Below are positions 4,682 through 49,707 of a stretch of DNA of 64,000 bases, one piece after another. Below the pieces are notes generated by a model. That model did no database searches, was not told where the DNA came from, and saw nothing but the letters and a program-made list of their open reading frames with translations. Position 1 is the first letter of the stretch; each line of letters starts with the position of its first letter. The position numbers and the translations under genes were made by a program. The DNA is from Alloalcanivorax mobilis (lineage in GTDB: Bacteria > Pseudomonadota > Gammaproteobacteria > Pseudomonadales > Alcanivoracaceae), in the NCBI RefSeq assembly GCF_002864685.1, contig NZ_NMQZ01000019.1, positions 1 to 64,000 of the forward strand, given 5' to 3'.

Positions 4682-4727
4682 CGCTTTCCAGTCCGGATGA
4701 GGGGCCCCGTCCAGGGCGGCCTCGGCC
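4682..4727. repeat. Degenerate duplicate of part of the upstream flavoprotein gene
   Basis: Positions 4691-4727 match 3816-3852 inside the flavoprotein gene at 35 of 37 bases, in the same orientation. The 10 bases before it (CGCTTTCCAG) match 3786-3795, so the copy lacks about 20 bp present in the source. The duplicate ends exactly where the first heptamer of HE3 begins. It is non-coding here. Confidence 0.75.
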
Positions 4728-4961
4728 GGACGCTGGACGCCGGACGCTGGACGCCGGACGCCGGACGCTAAGATCAAACCCCGCTGCTGAAAACATTGCG
4801 GCTGCGCATAGGGGGATTGTCTTTTCGCAACCGGCGAAAGCGCGGCAGCCGTTGGATGCTAACCCGGTGGGGCTTTCCGTGTGTGTTGCGCCAAGCCTCG
4901 CAGAAAACACTCCGAGCCTTTCGGAGCCAGGGTTAAGCGTCTGGCGTCTGGCGTCCGGCGT
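4728..4961. repeat. Inverted heptamer element HE3 (barrel gene/lrp)
   Basis: The left arm (4728-4769) is six units of GGACGCY. The right arm (4937-4961) is GCGTCTG twice, GCGTCCG and GCGT. The centre, about 165 bp, is one of the longest in the window and carries the core box CGCAGAAAACAC (4899-4910) and the junction GGGTTAAGCG (4931-4939). The last base of the right arm is the first base of the complement of the lrp stop codon, so the element abuts the end of that gene. It separates convergent genes. Confidence 0.85.
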
Positions 4962-7461: not shown

Positions 7462-7756
7462 TTTTGAAAAATCCGATACAGGAATCAGGATACAGCGCGG
7501 CGAAGGCCTCGGTGTGCTGCAGGGCCGTGCCCGCGCCGTGGTGCCGAAAGACCGCCCCTCTCCCTGTCCCTCTCCCTGTCCCTCTCCCGCAAGGGGAGAG
7601 GGGACCCTCCAGCACGCGCCTTTGCAGCTCTTCCGCGCATACGCTTAGCCCCTCTCCCCTCGCGGGAGAGGGGTTGGGGAGAAGGGGTGATTCAGCTTTC
7701 GACGCCTGCCCGGCCGTTCCTACGGTTGGGCGCCGGCCTGTTCCCCCGGCCGCCAA
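7462..7756. repeat. Gene-free stretch with CCCTCTCCC-type palindromes
   Basis: No credible gene lies here. From 7556 to 7688 there are direct repeats of CTCCCTGTCC and two palindromes: CCTCTCCC/GGGAGAGG (7581-7601) and CCCCTCTCCC/GGGAGAGGGG (7649-7673). These resemble the common GGGAGAGG-type intergenic palindromes of many proteobacteria. They may stop transcription at the convergent ends of leuA and the amidotransferase gene. Confidence 0.6.
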
Positions 7757-12425: not shown

Positions 12426-12548
12426 CGAAACTCCAGCAGAGCGACCCGCGGCGAGAGAGCCCGGACGCCGTTATAACTTAAAGTGTTAATGATATGGCAT
12501 TATTGTCGCGCTGTGGAGAGGAACGGCTCAAAATAACCGCTGTTGTTT

Positions 12549-12766
12549 GACGTGGGACGCTAGACGCCGGACGCCGGACGCCGGACGCCGGACGCTACAC
12601 CGGCGTGGTCCGACGGGCATGCAGGTTTGCAAACACGGTTCTGAAAACCTGCAAAGGATGCAGTACGGGGTTTTGACTTGGCGTCCGGCGTCCGGCGTCC
12701 GGCGTCCGGCGTCAGGCGTCAGGCGTCTAGCGTCCGACGTCCGACGCCAGACGTCCGACGCCAGAC
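12549..12766. repeat. Inverted heptamer element HE4 (sulP/nuoN), unequal arms
   Basis: The left arm (12549-12596) is GACGTGG, GACGCTA, then GACGCCG four times and GACGCT. The right arm (12681-12766) has twelve units: GCGTCCG four times, GCGTCAG twice, GCGTCTA, GCGTCCG, then ACGTCCG and ACGCCAG alternating. Read outward from the centre both arms show four CCG-type units and then a TA-type unit, but the right arm has two extra CAG units between. The centre contains GCAAACAC (12629-12636), a degenerate core box. The right arm ends six bp from the nuoN stop codon. The preceding 12426-12548 is the sulP leader, with no other gene. Confidence 0.88.
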
Positions 12767-31463: not shown

Positions 31464-31541
31464 ACCCGCCGCCTCCACCAGACACAAAAAAAGCCGGCCC
31501 CGTGGGGCCAGCCTTTTTTTGTGTCTGGTGGAGGCGGCGGG
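31464..31541. terminator. tmRNA terminator within an inverted duplication of the tmRNA 3' end
   Basis: Seven A, GCCGGCCCC, GTGGGGCCAGCC and seven T (31485-31520) form a bidirectional intrinsic terminator for the minus-strand tmRNA. The palindrome extends far beyond the terminator: 31464-31501 is nearly the reverse complement of 31504-31541, so GCCGCCTCCACCAGACAC, the mature 3' end with CCA, is present on both strands. Confidence 0.85.
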
Positions 31542-31881
31542 GATCGAACCCGCGTCCGCCAGCAATCCATCTATGGATCTACATGCTTAGTCATGTCTAT
31601 TGATTTAAGTGGCTGCGGCCCGACCGACAGGGCGCAGTCACCGAGTCCCTAAGGTTTTAACAGCGCGATCCGGGACGGACGTTGCTGCGATCCTGTGTAG
31701 CGATGCTCGCCGCTCTTCCCCACAGGCTGGGTCGATTGGCGATAAGCAGGGTTTAAGCTGCTAGTGCGTAAGTATCGTCGTTTGCGATTACTTTAGTGTG
31801 CCACAAGGTGGTTACGAGCACTGTGACCTACTCGGCATGCACCACAGAGTTCAATACCGGCGTCGAATCCATGTCGCCCCC
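31526..31881 (-). ncRNA. ssrA: Transfer-messenger RNA (tmRNA)
   Basis: This RNA of about 356 nt rescues stalled ribosomes by trans-translation. The 5' end reads GGGGGCGACATGGATTCGACG, and the 3' end GCGGGTTCGATCCCCGCCGCC-TCCACCA makes the T-arm and acceptor stem of the tRNA-like domain. The resume region encodes ANDDTYALAA followed by TAA (31753-31785), very close to the Pseudomonas tag ANDDNYALAA. The CCA is encoded. SmpB, its protein partner, is encoded about 630 bp away on the same strand. Ends are placed by homology. Confidence 0.95.
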
Positions 31882-38793: not shown

Positions 38794-38796
38794 GCA

Positions 38797-38933
38797 GTTG
38801 ACAGTTGATAGTTGACGGTTGATAGCTAAGTTCAAAACACCGTTGCAGAGAGCATGGGATGCTTCGCTATTTTGCAACGACATTGCCGTTACGCATGGTT
38901 TTCGCTGTCAACTGTCCACTATCCACTGTCAAC
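38797..38933. repeat. Inverted heptamer element HE8 (hrcA/grpE)
   Basis: The left arm (38797-38824) is GTTGACA, GTTGATA, GTTGACG, GTTGATA. The right arm (38906-38933) is TGTCAAC, TGTCCAC, TATCCAC, TGTCAAC. The centre begins GCTAAGTTCAAAACAC and ends GGTTTTCGC, resembling the junction boxes of the GC-rich members, and contains CGTTGCA/TGCAACG and AGCAT/ATGCT stems. It starts three bp after the hrcA stop and ends 14 bp before the grpE sigma-32 promoter. Confidence 0.85.
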
Positions 38934-38947
38934 TACCTGTCCCTGCC

Positions 38948-38975
38948 CTTGAATCCCGCCCGGGTGTTCCCATAT
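38948..38975 (+). promoter_or_regulatory. Sigma-32 promoter of grpE
   Basis: CTTGAAT (38948-38954), a 14-bp spacer and CCCATAT (38969-38975) match the heat-shock sigma-32 consensus (CTTGAAA, then CCCATNT). It lies 42 bp before the grpE ATG. Confidence 0.8.
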
Positions 38976-39016
38976 CTTTGCCCGCTTTCCCAACATTCGG
39001 GATTCGTGGAGTGGAT

Positions 39017-41686: not shown

Positions 41687-41694
41687 TAAAGGCC

Positions 41695-41793
41695 TGACGC
41701 CGGACGCTCGACGCTGGACGCCGAAAGACGAGACCCGATACTGAGCGTCAGGCGTCAGGCGTCAGGCGTCAGGCGTCAGGCGTCAGGCGTCAG
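41695..41793. repeat. Inverted heptamer element HE5 (dnaK/dnaJ)
   Basis: The left arm (41695-41722) is TGACGCC, GGACGCT, CGACGCT, GGACGCC. The right arm (41745-41793) is GCGTCAG seven times without any change. The centre is only 22 bp, so the whole can fold as one long hairpin. It begins eight bp after the dnaK stop, inside what is normally a dnaK-dnaJ operon. Confidence 0.88.
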
Positions 41794-45361: not shown

Positions 45362-45451
45362 GTCGGACGTCGCACGTCGGACGTCGACACAGAAACACAG
45401 AGGCGGCTCCGCCGCCGAAAAGCGTCCGACGTCCGACTTCTGACGTCAGAC
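45362..45451. repeat. Inverted heptamer element HE6 (carA/carB)
   Basis: The left arm (45362-45389) is GTCGGAC, GTCGCAC, GTCGGAC, GTCGACA. The right arm (45424-45451) is GTCCGAC twice, TTCTGAC, GTCAGAC. The 34-bp centre contains CAGAAACAC (45390-45398, a shortened core box) and a GGCGG/CCGCC hairpin. It lies between two genes whose products act in fixed ratio. Confidence 0.82.
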
Positions 45452-45489
45452 CCCAAGCAAAATGCTCGAATCTGGACGGTTAATAAGAC

Positions 45490-48774: not shown

Positions 48775-49251
48775 ATGCAACGTGTTCCCATGACGTCCGC
48801 CGGGGCGGAAGCCTTGCGCCAGGAGCTGGAACAGCTGAAAAAGGTGGATCGCCCACGCATCACCGCGGCGATCGCCGAGGCCCGCGAGCACGGCGATCTC
48901 AAAGAGAACGCCGAATACCACGCCGCCCGCGAACAGCAGGGTTTCTGTGAAGGGCGCATCAACGACATCGAGGGCAAGCTGTCCAACGCCCAGATTATCG
49001 ATATCACCCAGATTGCCCGCACTGGCAAGGTGATTTTCGGTGTCACCGTCACCATTATCGACGTGGACACCGACGAAGAGCGGGTCTACCAGATTGTCGG
49101 TGACGACGAAGCCGACATCAAAAAGGGTAAGCTCAGCGTCAATTCACCCATCGCCCGCGGCCTGATCGGCCGGGAAGAGGGCGATACGGTGCAAATCGAT
49201 ACGCCCAGCGGCACTAAAGAGTACGAGATCGATAAGGTCGAGCATTTGTGA
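48775..49251 (+). CDS. greA: Transcription elongation factor GreA
   Basis: This 158-residue factor enters the RNA polymerase secondary channel and stimulates cleavage of backtracked RNA. The N-terminal antiparallel coiled coil (about 1-75) includes EELKK-type heptads and [22 protein letters not shown] with the tip acidic residues Asp and Glu. The C-terminal FKBP-like domain has [15 protein letters not shown] and [14 protein letters not shown]. It follows carB by 66 bp, the usual order in gammaproteobacteria. Confidence 0.97.
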
Positions 49252-49256
49252 GATGG

Positions 49257-49394
49257 GTCGGACGTCTGATGTCGGACGTCTGACGCTTTAACCCGGGTTC
49301 TGCGACCGGTGAGTATTTCCCGACCGTCGCAGTAAACACTTGGAGCTTTCCGGTTTCGGGTTTAGCGTCCGACGTCCGACGTCCGACGTCCGAC
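49257..49394. repeat. Inverted heptamer element HE7 (greA/yhbY)
   Basis: The left arm (49257-49284) alternates GTCGGAC and GTCTGAY. The right arm (49367-49394) is GTCCGAC four times. Junction boxes GCTTTAACCC and GGGTTTAGCG bound the centre, which holds the core box CGCAGTAAACAC (49328-49339). The element starts five bp after the greA stop and ends one bp before the complement of the yhbY stop, so it fills the whole gap between convergent genes. Confidence 0.88.
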
Positions 49395-49395
49395 A

Positions 49396-49707
49396 TTACC
49401 CGTTGGCGCGCAGCACGTTGGACAGCTTCGGGTCCGGTTTGGCGGCGGCGCGGTAGAGCAGGGCGATGTTGCCGATGCGCTGCACCAGCTCGGCGCCGGA
49501 TGACTGGCACAGGGCCTCGACGAACTCGGCGCGCTGGTCACGGGTGGGGGCGTTGACCTTCACCTTGATCAGCTCATGGTCTTCCAGGCGCCGGTCCAGC
49601 TCTTCCAGAAAGTTCTCGGTGAGGCCTTTGTCACCGGAGATCAGCACTGCTTTGAGGTGGTGGCCGATCTGGCGAAAGCGTTTTTTGTCCTGTTGACTCA
49701 GTGACAT
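49396..49707 (-). CDS. yhbY: CRM-domain RNA-binding protein YhbY
   Basis: This 103-residue protein is a single CRS1-YhbY domain, associated with 50S ribosome precursors. It contains [51 protein letters not shown] (in part), where the HxLKxxxxxGxxGLT motif replaces a GxxG RNA-binding loop, and [17 protein letters not shown] precedes the ATG. It is divergent from rlmE, the conserved neighbour. Confidence 0.95.

Follow-up and report, generated by a model that had tools for sequence, protein, structure and literature searches.

Inverted elements built of tandem 7-nt units are abundant in Alloalcanivorax mobilis, where they are intergenic, densest in convergent and then in tandem gaps, and placed tight against stop codons. 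The window (the whole 64-kb stretch of DNA that was analysed) contains eight two-armed heptamer elements, six of which lie no more than 10 nt from a stop codon, and the association with gene ends proposed in an earlier note on this DNA holds in 21% of the genome and in pooled relatives, beyond simple promoter avoidance. The explanation that we favor, with about even confidence, is that these are REP/MITE-like dispersed palindromic intergenic repeats, kept where the DNA just behind stops is free of constraint. They look like a variety of the known REP-like/heptamer intergenic repeats and not like a new kind of terminator.

The greA–yhbY element and other elements of the window

The gap that runs from the greA stop to the yhbY stop holds a single heptamer element at 49257–49394, composed of an arm, a core and an inverted arm. 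The left arm (49257–49287, plus strand) is made of GTCGGAC/GTCTGAT units, with the greA stop codon (49249–49251) 5 nt upstream; the alpha-type core (49288–49363, plus strand) reads TTTAACCCGG ... GCAGTAAACAC ... CGGGTTTAGC, its ends being common to the arms; and the right arm (49364–49394) is made of GTCGGAC units on the minus strand, with the yhbY stop codon (49396–49398) 1 nt beyond. The two arms are 90% complementary, and the entire gap with both stops (49249–49398, plus strand) is predicted to fold as RNA into one long hairpin (−84.3 kcal/mol, z −7.7). A scan for a hairpin followed by a T-tract found no terminator-like site in 49251–49396, and at the Rfam gathering score the window gave only tmRNA, two tRNAs and an S15 leader, leaving the heptamer elements unmatched. 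The source genome (G000) is 4.10 Mb, and its GreA is 87% identical to those of Alcanivorax sp. DP30 and Alloalcanivorax marinus, the closest named relatives in a comparison that possibly omitted very near records.

Over the window as a whole, a degenerate heptamer pattern had 62 matches, compared with 2.1 in shuffled sequence. The element at 593–715 (GGACGCC arms, alpha-type core) overlaps the bioC stop by 2 nt; that at 4725–4961 (GGACGCY arms and, by eye, a gamma-like and then an alpha-like core) has 1 nt in common with the minus-strand lrp stop; that at 12540–12766 (GGACGCC/GACGTC arms) is 6 nt from the minus-strand nuoN stop; that at 38795–38934 (CAGTTGA arms, gamma-like core by eye) lies 1 nt past the hrcA stop, with grpE 82 nt further on; and that at 41692–41793, with a right arm of (GCGTCAG)x7, lies between dnaK, whose stop is 5 nt upstream, and dnaJ. 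Two elements, neither of them cited in the earlier note, do not abut a gene: one at 1408–1482 (AGTTRAA arms), 20 and 50 nt from its neighbors with the bioD stop 20 nt off, and one at 45362–45451 (GACGTC), 36 and 38 nt from carA and carB. The distances first given for bioC, lrp, nuoN, greA and yhbY were reproduced, and those for hrcA and dnaK required correction, from 3 to 1 nt and from 8 to 5 nt.

The seven GCGTCAG units in the right arm of the dnaK/dnaJ element, compared with one in the relative G020, represent an in-place expansion. Inspection by eye of hrcA/grpE, carA/carB and dnaK/dnaJ places the element after the stop and ahead of a conserved leader of the next gene. Upstream of grpE (38940–39016), CTTGAA ... 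CCCATAT is kept in several relatives and resembles a heat-shock sigma-32 promoter. The carB leader (45453–45489) contains ACGYCTGACGGTTAG, conserved in most relatives compared and degenerate here by eye. Elsewhere in the window, a 37-nt inverted repeat at 31465–31541 (92% complementary, with an internal T-run) overlaps the tmRNA gene (31526–31881, minus strand) at its 3′ end and is probably the terminator of that gene, and a tandem repeat of CCCTCTCCCTGT (7556–7588, 2.8 copies) overlaps an inverted repeat (7580–7603/7649–7672), the two together spanning 7556–7672.

Abundance, unit families and architecture

Forty stretches and the window together provided a sample of 862 kb, or 21% of the genome. 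At a score of at least 13, this sample contained 182 period-7 arrays, compared with 0–14 for each other period between 4 and 13; the period-7 arrays are not a product of chance. Merging of arrays gave 145 elements, 102 of which had an inverted partner around a core, and extrapolation gives about 690 copies per genome. Two-arm elements measured 71–236 bp (5th–95th percentile), with arms variable in the number and sequence of their heptamers. The unit families were GGACGCY and GACGTCN, AGTTRAA, AGCTNCA, CAGTKTT, GGATWCA, CACGCNN and CAGTTGA; the main units lack GGG, which is present in some variants (GGGCGCT).

Neighboring arrays of the same family were inverted in all 67 cases, whereas the eight pairs of different families comprised 3 inverted and 5 direct. 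Among stop-proximal arrays of determinable direction, 100 ran in the usual direction of their family and 4, all CAGTKTT, were reversed, a test of consistency since the usual direction of each family was set post hoc from the arrays themselves. Core profiles, built from few strict seeds (11, 9 and 7) and thus giving understated numbers, recovered 26 alpha, 12 beta and 14 gamma copies. Alpha cores had GGACGCY/GACGTC arms in 22 of 26 copies, as did 12 of the 14 gamma cores, and beta cores had AGTTRAA arms in 10 of 12; the remaining copies had other or mixed arms. By eye, the two arms of the element at C4 22308 vary independently.

Arrays of unlike families can meet in phase. At G000:C24:33997–34064 (L123), GCCTCAA units run in phase into GCGTCTG units within one array, and at G000:C7:95025–95106 (L099, partly in a called gene), GACGCCA units pass via GCCGCCG into CTGAAAA, again in phase. 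The impression is of a 7-nt frame that persists through a change of sequence.

No mobilizing enzyme or recent insertion was found. Three Y1_Tnp matches occur in the genome, with an array within one locus (L131) and none at the other two, the flanks of the loci being only ∼1.5 kb. An autonomous transposon as the source was considered and rejected; the 862 kb contained no pair of partnerless inverted arrays 0.5–5 kb apart, a search for which arrays of undeterminable direction could not qualify.

Placement against stop codons

Genes were called with our own gene finder, and the arm ends could be off by a few nt. Only 3 of the 145 elements lay mostly in called genes, 5 had no flanking gene, and 137 lay in gaps; occupancy was highest in convergent gaps (44 of 109), followed by tandem (77 of 556) and divergent gaps (10 of 105). 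For the distance test, each element was placed at random in the gap left once the element length was subtracted (10,000 simulations), leaving out two tandem and four convergent multi-element gaps, 10 divergent gaps, the 3 elements in genes and the 5 without flanking genes. Random placement in gaps of 100–350 bp, the comparison made in the earlier note, is not a suitable null, since most of the gap is taken up by the element.

Among 75 tandem gaps with one element, 56 had it within 10 nt of the upstream stop, compared with 17.9±3.0 expected, a count reached in 0 of 10,000 simulations; the median distance was 3 nt to the stop and 63 nt to the start. Two-arm elements met this distance in 49 of 59 cases and single arrays in fewer (7 of 16). 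In convergent gaps, 31 of 40 elements lay within 10 nt of a stop, compared with 25.8±2.0 (p 0.009), with a median distance of 3.5 nt (p 0.06). The residual convergent gap has a median of 29.5 nt, and most of the closeness in convergent gaps such as greA–yhbY is due to these tiny gaps. Thus, the assertion that the elements lie far closer to stops than random placement would give is sustained in tandem gaps, whereas in convergent gaps the effect is modest. Run on 21% of the genome, the comparison of distances with random placement that had been proposed as a check did not find them indistinguishable from random, and the claim was not refuted.

The excess near stops survived when a strip on the start side was barred to the elements. 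With 30, 60, 100 and 150 nt barred, 33 of 51, 23 of 39, 13 of 28 and 8 of 20 elements lay within 10 nt of the stop, compared with expectations of 7.9, 6.2, 4.7±1.8 and 3.6±1.5 (p 0.008 at 150 nt). The start-side constraint as modelled is therefore not the whole explanation, and some targeting of, or selection for, gene ends is possible. In convergent gaps with room, 10 of 18 elements were within 10 nt, compared with 4.7±1.8 (p 0.005).

Other small palindromes were examined in the same way. In array-free gaps, 51 of the 67 hairpins found behind 332 stops began 0–30 nt after the stop, compared with about 6.6 in shuffles. Palindromes other than the heptamer elements lay within 10 nt of the stop in 7 of 24 cases in array-free gaps of this genome (4.7±1.6 expected) and in 10 of 22 cases in the sister species G022 (3.9±1.7 expected), the latter count including some degenerate heptamer elements. 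REP motifs of G022, from a list drawn up after inspecting the G022 gaps, occurred in 12 of 43 convergent, 13 of 309 tandem and 2 of 40 divergent gaps, and 7 of the 13 in tandem gaps were within 10 nt of the stop, compared with 2.2±1.3 (p 0.001). Because REPs and other palindromes also lie on the stop side, the preference seems general to small palindromes and strongest in the heptamer elements.

Relatives and orthologous gaps

In nine relatives pooled, 19 of 26 tandem elements lay within 10 nt of the stop (6.2±2.0 expected) and 10 of 12 convergent elements (5.9±0.8 expected), with half of these cases coming from one genome, G013 (tandem 8 of 12, convergent 8 of 9). The tenth relative, G020, had no element. 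Taken singly, G022 showed no effect in 437 kb (tandem 2 of 5 versus 1.4, p 0.45; convergent 2 of 3 versus 2.1), and G034 (tandem 2 of 4, p 0.08) and G004 (0 of 1) were not significant. Although G029 was chosen for its many heptamer matches, 400 kb of it contained only 9 elements (tandem 2 of 3; convergent 2 of 2 versus 2.0), and G239, from another family, had too few elements for a test (tandem 2 of 3 versus 1.6; convergent 3 of 3 versus 2.4).

GACGYCN arrays were present in 31 of 46 genomes of the family, spread over 3 of its 8 genera, and the matches per genome ranged from 1 to 541. In 274 genomes drawn from the class, triple AGCTNCA units occurred in 1 and AGTTRAA units in 5, this genome included, with the reversed AGTTRAA control also matching (15 here, 26 in G239). 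Around greA, period-7 arrays numbered 2 in 80 gammaproteobacterial loci (798 kb), and one of the two was in Alcanivorax. The 48% GC genome G239 (L242–L261) contains AGTTGAA-armed palindromes, some against stops, and in G044 the heptamer pattern had 0 matches and its reversed control 27, which hints at another period-7 repeat.

When the greA–yhbY gap was compared in 29 relatives, A. marinus-like genomes had a gap of 15 bp and no element, and G022 had an alpha-core element. L010 lacks a palindrome in both its greA–yhbY (15 bp) and carA–carB (31 bp) gaps. In the genus g2, the 16 genomes compared (of 17) carry what appears by eye to be a canonical terminator in the greA–yhbY gap, flanked by heptamers in 10 of the 16 loci: GACGC-type units on both sides in four, CACGC-type units on both sides in two, and GTTGCAA units on one side in four.

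The comparison with G022 covered 198 orthologous gaps, in which the detector placed an element here in 40, in both species in 6 and in G022 only in 1; by eye, further G022 gaps have weaker heptamer arms. In 27 tandem gaps, the G022 orthologue exceeded the residual gap here by a median of 54 nt (interquartile 5.5 to 97.5), from which spacer is read as having been replaced or lost here, yet some G022 gaps hold elements or palindromes of their own. A strong palindrome was present in the G022 orthologue of 12 of 25 element gaps, compared with 12 of 52 element-free gaps (Fisher p 0.037; length-matched expectation 5.5±1.9), a comparison that rests on the longer gaps since the 30–70 nt bin gave 0 of 7 element gaps. 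Some of the G022 palindromes at element gaps are REPs, and others resemble degenerate heptamer elements. In several gaps where this genome has heptamer elements, G022 has TAGGAGCGGCTTCAGCCGCGA-type REPs as inverted pairs, the REP motif occurring in 8 of 25 such gaps.

Two shared sites with a different arm heptamer around a similar core are the most unusual observation. At C9 78840, an alpha core has GGACGCT arms here and AACACGCT/GGCACGCT arms in G022, and at C56 62498 a gamma core is similar in both species and the heptamer of both arms is different. In the G022 gaps (L202–L221) orthologous to C9 78840 and C4 24773, period-8 GGCACGCT is mixed with period-7 AACACGCT in the arms, which surround the same kind of core.

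Comparison with known repeats

Cyanobacterial STRR sequences are tandem intergenic heptamers of several sequences. The GGGAATC heptamers of Xanthomonas and the GGGGA(C/T)T heptamers of Nostoc are described in passages of PMC4692102 as tandem, intergenic and rarer between divergent genes; those of Xanthomonas prefer the sense strand at a distance of 0–50 bp from the stop, with some overlapping stops. Passages of the same paper place them mostly in the same gaps in two Xanthomonas, with varying length, mention inverted pairs, and cite a proposal that links the 7-nt length to DNA polymerase contact and slippage. Our elements resemble these repeats as tandem 7-nt intergenic units near the stop; however, the latter have one G-rich quadruplex-forming unit, whereas we find at least seven unit families, which mostly form inverted pairs about a core and lie closer to the stop.

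REP/BIME sequences, of the GTAG and CGTC super-families, are short, high-copy intergenic palindromes, often inverted dimers (passages of PMC3733652 and PMC12306157). According to passages of PMC12306157, many REPs in E. coli are near stop codons, and in a wider scan only 446 of 4,072 REPs were no more than 15 nt from a stop. The elements described here are likewise palindromic, multicopy and intergenic (102 of 145 partnered, 3 of 145 mostly in genes), but REPs are 20–40 bp with a fixed stem and tag, whereas the arms here consist of 7-mers in tandem that vary in both number and sequence. CGTC is present in GACGTC and, as its complement, in GGACG units, but within a paired arm. Association with a RAYT, a trait of REPs (GTAG), was not found here in the three Y1_Tnp loci (flanks of ∼1.5 kb). 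The terminal inverted repeats of the elements are a likeness to MITEs.

Class 3 paired repeats of Geobacter metallireducens, five tandem MTYCTGA heptamers at 16 aligned sites, were proposed as IHF/HU sites (passages of PMC2700814); an octamer class is described as well. They too are multicopy and consist of paired arrays of short units, placed on opposite strands with a variable distance between them, but the passages of that paper give no link to stop codons. The TAACTGA heptamers of Beggiatoaceae are abundant, intergenic and tandem, mostly just upstream of start codons, with one indirect repeat and 169 direct sets (PMC4679880); these are start-side direct repeats, in contrast to the stop-side inverted pairs found here. 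Our literature search recognized no description of several unit families as mirrored arms with shared cores against stops, combined with a change of arm sequence about a similar core; the passages of PMC9788540, on small RNAs of Alcanivorax dieselolei, contained nothing on heptamer elements, and PMC12320835 added nothing.

Alternative explanations

One alternative, which we regard as unlikely, is that the elements have been selected for a role in RNA like that of E. coli REPs, with a hairpin after the stop shielding the mRNA from 3′ exonucleases or stalling terminating ribosomes. The position within 10 nt of stops, the similar placement of E. coli REPs in passages of PMC12306157, the very stable hairpin predicted for greA–yhbY and the recurrence of palindromes at the same gaps in G022 are consistent with such a role. 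However, arm mismatches in 58 tandem elements showed no excess of G.U over A.C (64 versus 60, p 0.79; in relatives, from few mismatches, 8 versus 4), which speaks against strong selection on an RNA stem and leaves no visible sign of selection for pairing in the sense RNA. The L010 gaps that lack a palindrome, and the small fraction of REPs within 15 nt of a stop in the wider scan of PMC12306157, likewise argue against it. RNA-level effects, including the RNA-end protection raised in the earlier note, may occur. The idea that the units supply stops in all frames as a guard against read-through was dropped, as several units have no stop at all.

That transposition or conversion is aimed at gene ends, either at the stop or at a gene-end hairpin, so that adjacency reflects an insertion preference, strikes us as quite unlikely. 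It would account for the near-stop excess that persists with start-side exclusion and in roomy convergent gaps, for the hairpins just past stops in array-free gaps, and for the heptamers seen by eye to flank the greA–yhbY terminator of g2. Yet element ends vary in length and sequence with no fixed end-to-stop junction, an array lies near only one of the three Y1-transposase loci within the ∼1.5-kb flanks, and the REPs of another species have the same preference, which argues for a shared niche.

It is improbable that the elements are intrinsic, possibly bidirectional, transcription terminators, a use that the earlier note had suggested and that is unsupported in this genome. Strong hairpins, the preference for convergent gaps and the T-rich arms of the AGTTRAA family behind a GC-rich core would suit terminators; however, the GC hairpin followed by a T-tract that defines them occurred at or little above shuffled levels. 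Folding-based scans found it in 8 of 42 convergent element gaps (7 shuffled; 8 of 27 element-free gaps) and in 11 of 66 tandem element gaps (7 shuffled; 30 of 190 element-free gaps), and the T-tract was at the element itself in 7 of the 66 tandem gaps and in only 1 of the 42 convergent ones; a perfect-stem scan (8 of 121 gaps with an element, 22 of 265 without) was insensitive, and the folding-based scan was preferred. Elements also lie between carA and carB, where the core contains two overlapping minus-strand terminator-like sites (45397–45416), and between dnaK and dnaJ, and many tandem elements are probably internal to putative operons, 23 of 75 leaving <40 nt of other gap. The picture differs in relatives, given the apparent terminator of the g2 greA–yhbY gap and the hairpin and T-tract in 6 of 8 convergent element gaps of G013, compared with 2 shuffled. 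Finally, a pure placement artefact, in which contact with a stop is unavoidable when the gap is tiny, accounts for most of the convergent effect (25.8 of 40 expected) but fails in tandem gaps and in the pooled relatives, and we consider it very improbable as a full explanation.

Proposed explanation and significance

Retention of dispersed palindromic repeats in the strip after stops, the explanation that we favor, would operate as follows. The elements would spread or arise as palindromes and would persist mainly between a stop and the next functional signal (a promoter or leader, a terminator or another stop), while adjacent spacer would be lost. The arms would lengthen, shorten and change their heptamer by slippage and conversion at the DNA level, up to the coding boundary, and growth to that boundary would bring the element into contact with the stop. 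A terminator role would not be needed, and any effect on mRNA ends would be secondary.

A more speculative proposal, which we think doubtful, is that stable cores at gene ends have their heptamer arms rewritten, such that a similar core acquires a new 7-nt unit in both arms; it builds on the two sites shared with G022 and on the unlike families that meet in phase. The mostly coupled core and arm families within this genome bear against it, and independent insertion is a possible source of the arm differences at the same gap. If true, the maintenance of a period near 7 while the sequence of both arms is replaced would represent a new mode of turnover for repeats. These elements bear on the preference of bacteria for 7-nt tandem units and on the collection of small palindromes behind stops. 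By extrapolation, genomes of this family supply copies in the hundreds; they also provide several unit families and include both element-rich species and species with almost no elements, and this combination of copy number and contrast between species makes position, function and turnover directly measurable.
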